Made by a program: the position numbers and the translations under genes. From Leisingera sp. ANG1 (GTDB lineage Bacteria; Pseudomonadota; Alphaproteobacteria; Rhodobacterales; Rhodobacteraceae), in NCBI RefSeq assembly GCF_000203975.2, contig NZ_AFCF02000009.1:124001-188000 (forward strand): a stretch of DNA of 64,000 nucleotides. Reading direction: 5' to 3'. Positions 29,727-59,797 of this stretch are shown piece by piece (the stretch's first letter is position 1; every line of letters starts with the position of its first letter). Below the pieces are notes generated by a model. That model saw nothing but the letters and a program-made list of their open reading frames with translations. It searched no databases and was not told the origin of the DNA.

Positions 29727-29746
29727 TGTGGGGAACCTGTGGATAA
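29727..29746. promoter_or_regulatory. DnaA box pair between nrdJ and the DUF1489 gene
   Basis: TGTGGATAA at 29738-29746 is an exact match to the reverse complement of the consensus DnaA box TTATCCACA, and a second, 7/9 match (TGTGGGGAA, 29727-29735) begins 11 bases earlier. The perfect box contains the likely GTG start codon of the DUF1489 gene. DnaA control of ribonucleotide reductase genes is known in Escherichia coli (nrdAB); here it is an inference. Confidence 0.45.
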
Positions 29747-30170
29747 GCGCGTGAATCTTGTGAAGCTTTCGGTCGGCACCGAAAGCGTCGACAGCCTGAT
29801 GGCCTGGCAGGAAATGCGCCGTGCGGAACTGCCGGAGGGCCTGCCGCGGCACGTCACCCGCATGTGGCCCAAGCGCGAGGCAGAGATCCTGAACGGCGGC
29901 TCGATCTACTGGGTGATCAAGGGGCTGATCCAGTGCCGCCAGCGCATCCTGCGGCTGGATGAGGTCATCGGCGAAGACGGCATCCGCCGCTGCGCCATCA
30001 TCCTGGACCCGGAGCTGCAGCGCACCCACACGGCGCCGAAACGCCCGTTCCAGGGCTGGCGCTACCTGAAGGCTGAAGACTCCCCTGCCGACCTGCCCGC
30101 AGGTAAAAAACAGGAGGAGCCGTTGCCGCTGGAACTTTCCCAGGCACTGGCGGAAATCGGGGTTATCTGA
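29739..30170 (+). CDS. DUF1489 family protein
   Basis: A 143-residue protein with the opening NLVKLSVGTESVDSLMAWQ and the block GSIYWVIKGLIQCRQRILRL, both characteristic of the alphaproteobacterial DUF1489 family, whose function is unknown. No signal peptide or membrane segment. The start is taken at the GTG of 29739, giving MDKRVNLVKL; a GTG four codons later is possible. It is divergent from nrdJ, sharing a control region with it, and is followed by a repeat element rather than a T-run terminator. Confidence 0.8.
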   Translation: MDKRVNLVKLSVGTESVDSLMAWQEMRRAELPEGLPRHVTRMWPKREAEILNGGSIYWVIKGLIQCRQRILRLDEVIGEDGIRRCAIILDPELQRTHTAPKRPFQGWRYLKAEDSPADLPAGKKQEEPLPLELSQALAEIGVI

Positions 30171-30202
30171 GGCAATCCGCTCCCCCCGCGGCAGCCTCGC
30201 CA

Positions 30203-30276
30203 GCGCCGGGCGTCAGCCCGGCGCACGGCCCAACCGAGGCGGAAACATCTGTGAAGTTTCCAGCAACGGGCGGGAG
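30203..30276 (+). repeat. Two-hairpin intergenic element, copy 1
   Basis: Downstream of the DUF1489 gene: hairpin 1 GCGCCGGGC-GTCA-GCCCGGCGC (30203-30224), box GGCCCAACCG (30227-30236), hairpin 2 GGAAAC-N9-GTTTCC (30241-30261), box ACGGGCGGGAG (30266-30276). The two boxes begin 39 bases apart, exactly as in the copy at 58953, while the hairpin sequences differ but stay paired. This points to a structured element, either RNA 3' end or repeat family. Confidence 0.6.
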
Positions 30277-30315
30277 CACCCCGGCATACGGCATGCACCC
30301 GGAACCAAAAATGCG

Positions 30316-30386
30316 CTCCCGCCCCCTTTTCAGGCATCCATAGATGCCTTGAAGGCGTTGGGCCAAGCCCGCGCGGGCGCGCGGGC
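30316..30386 (-). repeat. Two-hairpin intergenic element, copy 2 (inverted)
   Basis: On the minus strand after hisG: hairpin 1 is GCCCGCGCG-CC-CGCGCGGGC (30386-30367), box GGCCCAACG (30364-30356), hairpin 2 GGCATC-TATG-GATGCC, and GGGCGGGAG (30324-30316). The distance between the boxes is 38 bases against 39 in the other copies. With copy 1 it fills the gap between the convergent DUF1489 and hisG genes; the two facing GGGCGGGAGC ends form one larger inverted repeat, followed on the plus strand by CCTTTTC. Confidence 0.55.
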
Positions 30387-30394
30387 AGCAGCGC

Positions 30395-31093
30395 TTATTT
30401 GCGGTGTTCCAGCAGGTCCAGCAGCGTGTTCAGCGCCGCCTTCTCATCGGTGCCGTACTTCGCCACCCGGCTGCGCCACAGGGTGGCCTGCGACTTCAGC
30501 ACCAGACCGTCGTTCAAGAGCTTCAGGTGATTGGCCCGCAGCGTCTCGCCTGTGGAAGTGATGTCGGCCACCATTTCGGCGGTCTCGTTCTTCACCGTGC
30601 CTTCGGTCGCGCCCTGGCTGTCGACCAGCTGGTAATCCGCCACTCCGGCGTCGGTCAGGAACTCCCGCACCAGCCGGTGGTATTTGGTGGCGATCCGCAG
30701 CCGGTGGCCATGCGCCGCGCGGAACGCCGATGCGGCAGCGTCCAGATCATCCAGGGTGTCCACGTCGATCCAGAACTGCGGCACCGCCAGGATCAGATCG
30801 GCATGGCCGAAGCCCATTTCCGCCAGATCTTCCACCTGCTGCTCGAACCGCGGCAGCTTCTCCTGCACCAGATCGGTGCCGGTCACGCCCAGATGGATCC
30901 GCCCCGCAGCCAGTTCGCGCGGGACCTCTCCCGCCGACAGCAGCACCAGCTCCATATTCGACACACCTTCAACCGCGCCCGCGTATTCGCGGTCCGACCC
31001 GGTGCGAGACAGCGTCACGCCGCGTTTGGCAAACCAGTCAAAGGTCTTTTCCATCAGCCGCCCCTTGGACGGCACTCCCAGCTTCAGGGTCAT
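30395..31093 (-). CDS. hisG: ATP phosphoribosyltransferase, short form HisG
   Basis: A 232-residue catalytic subunit that joins ATP and PRPP in the first step of histidine synthesis. Its length marks the short HisG type, which lacks the C-terminal regulatory domain and needs HisZ. The opening LKLGVPSKGRLMEKTFDWF, GVTGTDLVQEK and the PRPP-loop region VDSQGATEGTVKNE are typical. The start overlaps the hisZ stop by four bases. It is the last gene of hisS-hisZ-hisG. Confidence 0.96.
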   Translation of the reverse strand: MTLKLGVPSKGRLMEKTFDWFAKRGVTLSRTGSDREYAGAVEGVSNMELVLLSAGEVPRELAAGRIHLGVTGTDLVQEKLPRFEQQVEDLAEMGFGHADLILAVPQFWIDVDTLDDLDAAASAFRAAHGHRLRIATKYHRLVREFLTDAGVADYQLVDSQGATEGTVKNETAEMVADITSTGETLRANHLKLLNDGLVLKSQATLWRSRVAKYGTDEKAALNTLLDLLEHRK

Positions 31094-58297: not shown

Positions 58298-58921
58298 ATG
58301 ACCAAACTGCTGTTTATCAAGGCTTCGCCCCGCGGCAGCCAGTCGAAGTCCAGCGCACTCGCCAGCGCCTATCTTGCCCGGCTGCAGGAAACGGACAGCC
58401 GGATCGAAATTGACGTGCTGGACTTGTCCAGCGAGCCGCTGCCGGATTTTGACGGTGACAAGGTTGCCGCAAAGATGAACGTTATCACCGGCCAGAACCA
58501 CGATGGCAGCCAGCGGACGGCCTGGGACGAAATCACCACTATGGCCAGCCGGTTCGCTGCCGCCGACATCTACCTGATCGCCGCGCCGATGTGGAACGGC
58601 AGTATTCCCTACAAGCTCAAGCAGTACATCGACCTGATCCATCAGCCCGGCCTGCTGTGGGGGCTTGATCCTGAAACAGGATACTTCGGCCTGCTGGAGG
58701 GCAAGAGGGCCGTGCTGGCGCTGACCAGCGGCGCCTACGGGCCGGACATGCCGTCGCCAGCCTTTGGGGTGGATCACCAGTCCGCCTATCTGAAGTTCTG
58801 GCTGAACCAGGCCGGAGTGGAGGACATCGCGGAACTCCGCTTCCAGCCAACGCTCCTGACGGCCGACCCGGAGGCCGGTTTCCAGGCCGCCATTGCAGAG
58901 GCGGAAAAGCTGGCCTCCTGA
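58298..58921 (+). CDS. azoR: FMN-dependent NADH-azoreductase/quinone reductase
   Basis: A 207-residue flavodoxin-fold enzyme. The phosphate-binding loop of FMN is in IKASPRGSQSKSSALASAYL; MWNGSIPYKLKQYIDLI and LTSGAYGPDMP are AzoR-typical. Reduces quinones and azo dyes at the expense of NADH; protection against electrophilic quinones is the likely cell role. AGGAG eight bases before the ATG. Followed by the two-hairpin repeat element. Confidence 0.9.
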   Translation: MTKLLFIKASPRGSQSKSSALASAYLARLQETDSRIEIDVLDLSSEPLPDFDGDKVAAKMNVITGQNHDGSQRTAWDEITTMASRFAAADIYLIAAPMWNGSIPYKLKQYIDLIHQPGLLWGLDPETGYFGLLEGKRAVLALTSGAYGPDMPSPAFGVDHQSAYLKFWLNQAGVEDIAELRFQPTLLTADPEAGFQAAIAEAEKLAS

Positions 58922-58952: not shown

Positions 58953-59038
58953 GGGCCAGGCAGGCCGCGCCTGCGGCGCGGCCTGCCTGGCCCAACCGGG
59001 CCCTTCGGATTTCAGATCCGAAGCGGGACGGGCGGGAG
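58953..59038 (+). repeat. Two-hairpin intergenic element, copy 3
   Basis: After azoR: a perfect 19-bp inverted repeat around a TGC loop (58953-58993), whose end runs into box GGCCCAACCG (58989-58998), then hairpin 2 TTCGGAT-TTCAG-ATCCGAA (59004-59022), then ACGGGCGGGAG (59028-59038). The boxes start 39 bases apart, as in copy 1 at 30203. Hairpin 2 differs completely in sequence from copies 1 and 2 yet is fully paired. No T-run follows. Confidence 0.6.
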
Positions 59039-59077
59039 TGCTCCGCGCCGCTTTGCCCCGCTACCGCGGGGTGCGGC

Positions 59078-59680
59078 TTACTCCGCGGCGCGGGTGCCTG
59101 AACCCATCAGCACCGGCATCGCCTGACCGCCGCTCTCCATCTCAAACACCCGTTCAACACGCACAGCCTCAAGACCCGCGGCGCGCAGCGCCTCCCGCAC
59201 CTGCGGTTCCGTCAGCCCGGAGCCGCCCGCGTCCGCGGCCAGCCAGTCCCACTGCACAAAGACGCCGCCGTTATTCAGAAGCCCAGCCAGCACCTCCACG
59301 GCGCCGCGGTAGTCCGGCAGGAAGCTGCAGACGGAGGACGCGCAGATCATGTCGAAACCGCCAAGCATGCACGCTGCTTCCCGTGCGCCGCCGTCCAGAA
59401 TATCCGTGCACAGCGCCCTGACCTTGGGCAGCGCCTTCTCCTGCAGCACCGCAATCATCCGCTCCGAAGTGTCAGCAGCCACCACTTCCCGCACATGCGG
59501 CGCCAGCTTTTCACTGAGAAGCCCGGTGCCGCAGCCGAAGTCCAGCACCCGCTTGTCCTGCCAGCCGCCGCCGGTGATGCCGGCCGAACCATCCAGCGCG
59601 GCAAAGGCCCGGTCCGCATAAAGCCGGACATCGCTGTTGCCGTCCCAGCCGTCGGCGTAGTCATTCCAGTCGTCGCTCAT
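59078..59680 (-). CDS. Class I SAM-dependent methyltransferase
   Basis: A 200-residue methyltransferase with SAM motif VLDFGCGTGLLSEKLAP, the acidic AADTSERM and FDMICASSVCSFLPDY after it. Small-molecule methyltransferases of the UbiE/Methyltransf_11 type look like this. Substrate unknown. The ATG at 59680 (MSDDWNDYADGWDG) fits the family; the frame is open to 59758 with no ribosome site. Converges with azoR. Confidence 0.83.
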   Translation of the reverse strand: MSDDWNDYADGWDGNSDVRLYADRAFAALDGSAGITGGGWQDKRVLDFGCGTGLLSEKLAPHVREVVAADTSERMIAVLQEKALPKVRALCTDILDGGAREAACMLGGFDMICASSVCSFLPDYRGAVEVLAGLLNNGGVFVQWDWLAADAGGSGLTEPQVREALRAAGLEAVRVERVFEMESGGQAMPVLMGSGTRAAE

Positions 59681-59797
59681 TTGCCTGCGTGCTCCGCCTT
59701 GGTTGTTCAGATCCGGGACCGTGACCCGGCGGGCGGGCAGCGTCAACAGACAGGGCACCTGGAACAGGAAGAAAATCGCCGGTCCTGGCGGCTGCGT

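Follow-up and report, generated by a model that had tools for sequence, protein, structure and literature searches.

What are the short two-hairpin repeats that stand in three copies behind genes of a 64,000-nucleotide stretch of the Leisingera sp. ANG1 genome (the whole stretch is here called the window), and does their fold matter as DNA, as RNA, or not at all? Repeats of the REP type in bacteria have long been disputed, having been taken for junk, for DNA sites or for RNA signals.

Anatomy of the element

A first-pass annotation of the window had described two variable hairpins between fixed boxes in three copies, and direct reading located the boxes, the hairpins and the individual hairpin-2 sequences where it had put them. 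These are listed below with the flanking genes and the basis of each entry; the coordinates of whole copies are those of matches to a covariance model, R1, built from 62 copies (alignment A1).

29739..30170 (+): DUF1489 gene, 5' of copy 1 (Pfam PF07370, 1.2e-55; ORF)
30198..30282 (+): copy 1, whole covariance model match (R1 67.3 bits, E 8.7e-9)
30203..30224 (+): copy 1, hairpin 1, GCGCCGGGC-GTCA-GCCCGGCGC (sequence; fold)
30227..30236 (+): copy 1, box 1, GGCCCAACCG, its GCCC complementing GGGC of box 2 (sequence)
30237..30266 (+): copy 1, outer stem and hairpin 2, GGAAAC-N9-GTTTCC (sequence; covariance model; fold)
30267..30276 (+): copy 1, box 2, CGGGCGGGAG, then CACCCC (sequence)
30310..30394 (-): copy 2, whole covariance model match; pairs with copy 1 from the hisG side, facing inward (R1 50.2 bits, E 3.9e-6)
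30367..30386 (-): copy 2, hairpin 1 (sequence)
30355..30364 (-): copy 2, box 1, GGCCCAACGC, with the swapped C of the outer pair (sequence; covariance model)
30332..30349 (-): copy 2, hairpin 2, AGGCATC-TATG-GATGCCT (sequence)
30316..30325 (-): copy 2, box 2, GGGGCGGGAG, with the swapped G, then CGCATTTTT (sequence)
30395..31093 (-): hisG, convergent to the DUF1489 gene and 5' of copy 2 (Pfam PF01634, 2.5e-34; ORF)
58298..58921 (+): flavodoxin-fold reductase gene, 5' of copy 3 (Pfam PF02525, 1.9e-39; ORF)
58959..59044 (+): copy 3, whole covariance model match (R1 67.3 bits, E 8.6e-9)
58954..58992 (+): copy 3, hairpin 1, with arms able to reach into box 1 (sequence)
58989..58998 (+): copy 3, box 1, GGCCCAACCG (sequence)
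58999..59028 (+): copy 3, outer stem and hairpin 2, TTCGGAT-N5-ATCCGAA (sequence; covariance model; fold)
59029..59038 (+): copy 3, box 2, CGGGCGGGAG, then TGCTCC (sequence)
59078..59758 (-): methyltransferase gene, convergent to the reductase gene (Pfam PF08242, 2.4e-13; ORF)

As had been described, all three copies lie between convergent genes and start near a stop codon, hairpin 1 beginning 32 nt behind the stop of the same-strand gene for DUF1489, 8 nt for hisG and ~32-37 nt for the reductase gene, which we take to be azoR-like. Copies 1 and 2 form an inverted pair of the tail-to-tail type. The inner part of hairpin 1 of copy 3 appears in the fold of 58959-59044. The boxes, annotated as fixed, are indeed present in every copy, except that box 2 of the minus-strand copy starts with G rather than C and the base opposite is C rather than G; as an exchange of both partners at the first outer pair, this is itself a compensatory swap. 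In each copy GCCC of box 1 is complementary to GGGC of box 2, so that the base of hairpin 2 can form from the boxes themselves. After the three copies (67.3, 67.3 and 50.2 bits), the next R1 match in the window scores 24.7 bits, and single boxes with at most one mismatch do not exceed chance there (20 against 16.2 expected; 18 against 21.7).

In the wider set of copies, read on the strand that carries box 1 first, hairpin 1 ends with GCY-N, in which G stands in 97%, C in 98%, and the third letter is C in 83% or T in 10%. Next come GGCCCAAC, S, G, the outer stem with hairpin 2, C, GGGC and GGGAG, and after these C, any base and four positions held mainly by pyrimidines (+3 to +6: 75-86% pyrimidine, 3-6% A). 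GC-rich hairpins are present in the fold, as in intrinsic terminators; the tract 3' of GGGAG is mostly C, with T at merely 12-30% of positions +3 to +6, and is no classical U-tract. Pairing of GCCC with GGGC is near-invariant (99% paired in 98 copies) and varies so little that covariation cannot test it. A third hairpin, between GGGCGGGAG and the C-rich bases 3' of it, is not claimed, because it was no better than with shuffled downstream bases (14.3 against 13.9, with 46 of 102 above the shuffle mean).

Dispersal in Rhodobacteraceae and persistence at orthologous junctions

Genomes were interrogated with an exact pattern, GGCCCAAC-N15..40-CGGGCGGGAG, and with the same pattern reversed as a control. 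The pattern occurs 21 times in the 4.59-Mb genome that contains the window, the reversed control not at all, and 33 of 101 genomes contain it, namely every one of the 21 in the genus (the window genome included; 14-43 copies each), 12 of 40 from other genera of the family (1-27 copies each) and none of 40 from other families. Two of the 101 carry the reversed control, at a single place each. When the best 150 candidates per genome were scored, R1 gave 53 matches at E<=0.01 in the window genome and 32-105 matches in each of the 21 genus genomes. The first-pass annotation had made its reading depend on a genome search yielding more copies with the box pattern, and these counts supply many. On the 776-kb contig C19 the R1 scores are bimodal, 15 standing at >=34.5 bits and the next, which overlaps another match, at 24.4.

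Farther afield, R1 at E<=1e-4 matched at least 25 of 295 family genomes, among them the window genome and one congener, a lower bound obtained by scoring the best 15 candidates per genome. In a class-wide draw, with the best 18 candidates scored per genome, the window genome was the sole match among 240, two other genomes listed under the same family giving none. Named records hold the pattern in at least 118 stretches, and the 80 listed derive from Leisingera, Phaeobacter, Ruegeria, Tritonibacter, Tropicibacter, Epibacterium, Seohaeicola, Tropicimonas and other Rhodobacteraceae. Three of the 80 loci (L194, L228 and L230; JAHVJD records) belong to a single assembly labelled Nocardioides marinus DP1N28-1, with a G+C content of 64-66%, which is probably a mislabelled roseobacter. 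Plasmids gave two partial matches (29-33% of the query), both from Tritonibacter. A phage origin was considered and rejected: the four pattern matches on viral contigs occur in G+C-rich sequence (65-70%), three scoring 29.8-33.2 bits and one missing E<=0.05, the match at L313 lies inside a long ORF with L311 nearly identical to it in sequence, and all four are taken for chance; blastn against phage found no match.

Comparison of orthologous junctions bears on how copies are retained. At the 3' end of hisG (R1, E<=0.05), the hisG-side copy is found in 15 of the 21 genus genomes, the DUF1489-side copy in 14, and at least one of them in 16. The five genomes with neither (L327, L331, L332, L334 and L335) have a different 3' flank, and in L329 the neighbour of hisG differs and the hisG-side copy is kept. 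The stems at this junction change in compensatory fashion among orthologues, and in one species (L325) a G-A tandem takes the place of the Watson-Crick or wobble pairs seen in others. Behind the reductase gene the copy is kept in 6 of 11 orthologues (R1 58-67 bits); L351 and L354 have instead a hairpin with A and T tracts, in L352 the copy is decayed, and L348 and L355 are without one. On the best reading of these distributions, the element is dispersed in the Rhodobacteraceae and largely vertically kept.

A second dispersed family was encountered in the window genome (L111-L133), often consisting of a GGGGCGCTGCCCC-like hairpin, a second short hairpin, CCCGGAGTATTT, a few bases and AAAGATGAA or a similar sequence, as at 724840-724867 of contig C19. 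Its pattern gave 23 matches there, at 16 distinct sites, of which one (L123) is directly upstream of an element copy. In Seohaeicola (L051-L070), all 16 near-identical element copies that were examined have the GAGTATT box of the second family upstream, and 14 have the CCCCCTC arm; judged from these sequences, a composite of both families (~190 nt) seems to have spread recently. At L114 (contig C1, 659536-659559) the ATG of the second family's AAAGATGAAAC apparently serves as the start codon of an ORF, presumably, from its appearance by eye, for NAD(P)H-hydrate epimerase.

Covariation and the strand that folds

The differing hairpin-2 sequences had been read in the first-pass annotation as a pattern of covariation. 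RNAalifold, applied to a plain MAFFT alignment, recovered the four box pairs alone, because the hairpins are not column-aligned, and it gave way to a structure set by hand, to a covariance model and finally to a test that needs no alignment. The outer stem starts directly inside the boxes and can therefore be tested without any alignment; this was made the main test because alignment A2 had been fitted to the structure. It used copies with exact boxes from loci having at least 900 bp of flank, a non-random sample of 251 that includes orthologues, collapsed to 166 representatives less than 85% identical, in which positions were counted by distance from the boxes alone.

It is in the predicted register that Watson-Crick pairing in these 166 copies rises furthest above shuffled sequence. 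Pair (2,1), made up of 152 GC and 14 CG, reached z +12.7, and the outer pairs (3,2), (4,3), (5,4) and (6,5) reached +7.8, +8.7, +12.6 and +6.1; the register of hairpin 2 is discernible further in, at (8,8) with +5.6, (9,8) with +5.2 and (9,9) with +4.2. Off-register maxima were +5.0 at (3,1) and +4.0 at (8,7), most others lying within 3. A tree-aware test, performed in place of R-scape with a purpose-written script against columns evolved independently on a FastTree tree, returned nine pairs at E<=0.05. Six are structural and confined to the outer stem and hairpin 2; the remaining three lie one or a few columns off structural pairs. Of the 26 pairs in the model, 20 were not significant in this test, including every pair of hairpin 1 and the four near-invariant pairs between the boxes. 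In alignment A2, cells with both sides changed numbered 393 against 213 +/- 15 after shuffling, and 61.8% of cells pair against 51.2%. Covariation was thus upheld, by five outer pairs without alignment and by six structural pairs in the stand-in for R-scape: the fold is maintained, and selection acts on it.

Departures from Watson-Crick pairing identify the strand concerned. The commonest such state is a tandem G-A/A-G, present in 56 of the 166 copies; at one and the same junction it alternates, from species to species, with Watson-Crick or wobble pairs. Mismatches in the stems are G-T in 40 cases and A-C in 10 among the 166 representatives (p 2.4e-5); the corresponding 62 and 12 in all 239 distinct cores are inflated by relatedness. 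The same bias holds (16:3) in copies that lie antisense behind a gene, and those between divergent genes (3:2) are too few to test. Since a G-T mismatch would be A-C on the other strand, the bias implies selection on the fold of the strand running from GGCCCAAC to GGGCGGGAG, and strongly suggests that this strand probably acts as RNA.

Gene ends, rival readings and transcript boundaries

The contexts of the 251 copies were assigned from gene calls by a small codon-usage predictor trained on the window, in which single orientations may be wrong. A position between convergent genes, which the first-pass annotation had ascribed to all three of its copies, is the commonest (154 copies) and not the sole one. 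Another 32 copies follow a sense gene whose neighbour is codirectional. A further 48 lie antisense past the end of one gene, and upstream of them the next gene starts; 11 stand between divergent genes, 5 overlap predicted ORFs, and for 1 the context is assigned on one side alone. Of the 38 convergent intergenic regions of at least 100 bp on contig C19, 7 contain a copy, compared with 6 of the 304 other regions (p 1.3e-4); one more copy is in a 98-bp convergent region outside the 38. Among 190 distinct copies that face the stop codon of an opposite gene, 129 have GGGAG no more than 30 nt from it, and in 31 the distance is 100 nt or more. An inverted partner within ~250 bp accompanies 85 of the 251 copies, 71 head-to-head and 14 tail-to-tail (both members of one pair may be counted), whereas shuffled flanks, 502 in number, gave 4 matches. 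The gaps of head-to-head pairs fall mainly at 26-28 nt, where a single hairpin 1 is shared, and at ~54, 73 and 87 nt. In convergent contexts an extra strong hairpin was also observed 40-110 nt upstream of box 1 in 36 of 85 cases, against 5 of 85 shuffled; some of these are hairpins of the second family, and others may be decayed partner copies or a neighbour's terminator.

Flanking genes, sampled as 18 of the 26 proteins encoded next to C19 copies plus four from the window, are functionally unrelated and include those for RNase J, CobT, glycosyltransferases, short-chain dehydrogenases and HisG, which makes a metabolite-sensing role unlikely. A riboswitch or 5' leader was rejected, since just 32 of 251 copies precede a codirectional gene, and then after another gene, 11 are between divergent genes, and the flanks are unrelated. 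At the 59 antisense and divergent contexts we found no tRNA, and the small ORFs mostly had negative coding scores, the best (+6.5) falling below the threshold of 8; non-coding or antisense transcripts must therefore be assumed at antisense-only sites. Terminators with T tracts occur in 21 of 88 convergent regions of 90-450 bp that have the element and in 28 of 65 without it (p 0.014), or, length-matched at 130-320, in 19 of 66 and 14 of 29 (p 0.10); these regions come from C19 and from loci L193-L374, the element-bearing ones having been chosen largely for holding it.

The REP and BIME sequences of E. coli resemble the element in their alternating or inverted copies, and differ from it in having a conserved palindrome sequence and a link to RAYT. 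They are said, in the portion of the account available, to facilitate Rho-dependent termination (PMC2817692). In niche the element is close to the CGTC-tagged REPs of Alphaproteobacteria, which the available text describes as dispersed, extragenic, at 3' ends of convergent and unidirectional genes, mainly in head-to-head dimers and with no dedicated transposase (PMC3733652). According to the same text, those have one stem of 8-9 bp, a heterogeneous family consensus, an unpaired CGTC tag and a CCA-like tail, whereas the element here has two hairpins, free stems, two long fixed boxes, the tandem G-A and one-strand selection, and its GTC lies inside the paired outer stem (PMC3733652). Of the properties that define REPs, it shares the extragenic position, the enrichment at 3' ends and convergent junctions, and the inverted dimers; in place of a single short palindrome with a consensus it has two hairpins whose variable stems compensate. 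Neither GTAG nor CGTC is among its invariant letters, GTAG occurring between the boxes in 4 of 166 copies and CGTC on the reverse strand in 69. The latter belongs to a reverse-strand GCCCGTC, which may link the element to CGTC REPs by descent or may be due to chance from the G-A tandem. A Y1 transposase, associated with GTAG REPs and not with CGTC REPs, had no match in the window genome, and mobility of the REP/RAYT kind was rejected on that ground.

Close in niche, too, are Br-REP1 and Br-REP2 of Bradyrhizobium, which are 3'-UTR palindromes, Br-REP1 being located in overlapping 3' UTRs of convergent genes; like the element they have many copies, and RNA reads cover them, but their published consensus is of different sequence and the text available mentions no compensatory variation (PMC5082802). 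The motifs HRC-8-4 and uORFC-8-2 are likewise structured RNAs confined to Rhodobacterales, and differ, as far as the accessible description goes, in having one gene context each (cco and cysS) and a terminator U-run (PMC8632094). Rfam 15 yielded no match at the gathering score in the whole window, and sub-threshold matches alone at the two loci. That no name was known for the element accords with this and with the freely accessible papers searched, in which no description was found. We rate it as a new variant within REP-like elements, whose unusual feature is a fold under visible RNA-type selection; its niche is best read as that of REP/BIME sequences and its evolution as that of a structured RNA.

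Could the repeat nevertheless be a DNA element of the REP/BIME type, spread by mobility, tolerated at 3' ends and acting, if at all, as DNA (through gyrase, IHF or as a supercoil sink)? Its niche is that of published REPs, at 3' ends and convergent genes and in head-to-head dimers, as the available text has it (PMC3733652), the reverse-strand GCCCGTC adjoining hairpin 2 in 69 of 166 copies contains the CGTC of the tagged families, and in Seohaeicola 17 of 23 listed exact copies are near-identical, so that spread has occurred there. We consider this reading unlikely, because the stems are conserved in pairing and not in sequence, a bias of G-T over A-C is unexpected for a cruciform, in which both strands fold, and orthologous junctions keep their copies genus-wide with compensatory change; the missing Y1_Tnp match points the same way, although CGTC REPs are without one too. 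One-strand selection and inverted dimers would also be expected of a single-strand-DNA substrate of a peel-and-paste (HUH) transposon-like system, which we regard as very improbable indeed, Y1_Tnp matches being found in 6 of 21 genus genomes and the element in all 21.

An ordinary intrinsic terminator with decorated stems would account for the GC-rich stems, the 3'-end site, the partial exclusion of T-tract terminators and the T runs 3' of GGGAG in some copies, such as that of hisG in the window. Such a terminator has no need of invariant letters outside variable stems, nor of two ordered hairpins, and here the tract is mostly C and copies occur antisense behind genes; moreover, a GGGAG hybrid is not a weak one. 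We judge this explanation quite improbable. Distinctly unlikely, too, is a hub for a protein or small RNA, in which a trans factor would read the boxes on many transcripts and control stability or act in trans, without ending them. It would agree with box letters that stay nearly constant as the stems drift, with the lack of a shared function among the flanking genes, and with antisense copies, which could belong to independent small RNAs, but no factor was identified (Y1_Tnp being the one looked for), and binding alone leaves the tight placement at convergent stop codons unexplained.

Our belief is evenly poised on a REP-like element that acts at the level of RNA and sets the 3' boundary of transcripts, the functional strand having the order hairpin 1, GCYN-GGCCCAAC-S, stem and hairpin 2, GGGC-GGGAG, pyrimidines. 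The first-pass annotation had thought 3'-end formation, mRNA protection or bidirectional insulation likely, and any of the three may apply. We infer the boundary function, be it termination or 3'-end protection, from the placement just short of the convergent stop, from the provision of a copy for each gene in pairs, and from the partial exclusion of terminators. A transcript would run beyond the end of its gene into the element, where the double hairpin and invariant boxes would set its 3' boundary. Either RNA polymerase would be stopped, probably with a helper factor because there is no U-tract, or 3'-5' exonucleases trimming read-through RNA would be blocked. In both cases the transcript would be kept from entering the convergent neighbour as antisense RNA, and inverted pairs would give each of two convergent genes its own copy. 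Counting against a boundary are the lack of a U-tract, the antisense-only copies and those between divergent genes, the weaker terminator difference in length-matched regions, the T-tract terminator that 21 of the 88 regions with the element have as well, and L329, where the hisG-side copy persists beside a different neighbour. The greatest puzzle is posed by the 48 antisense copies. Because no sense gene was found upstream of these 48 among 251, protecting the adjacent mRNA can account for no more than part of the element's role; they could end antisense transcripts, which fits insulation better than such protection.

A bolder proposal, conceivable and on the whole doubtful, is a dedicated RNA boundary system in which a trans-acting factor of Roseobacter-type bacteria would read the near-invariant GCYNGGCCCAAC and GGGCGGGAG on arbitrary stems and stop or trim transcripts. 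If it were true, dozens of gene ends per genome, antisense-only sites included, would be shielded from antisense invasion. In the dispute over REP-like repeats, covariation and strand bias together provide direct evolutionary evidence that the fold of one strand has been selected copy by copy at gene ends. With dozens of natural replicates per genome, and orthologues that lack the element, these bacteria offer a system in which the insulation of gene ends can be tested.
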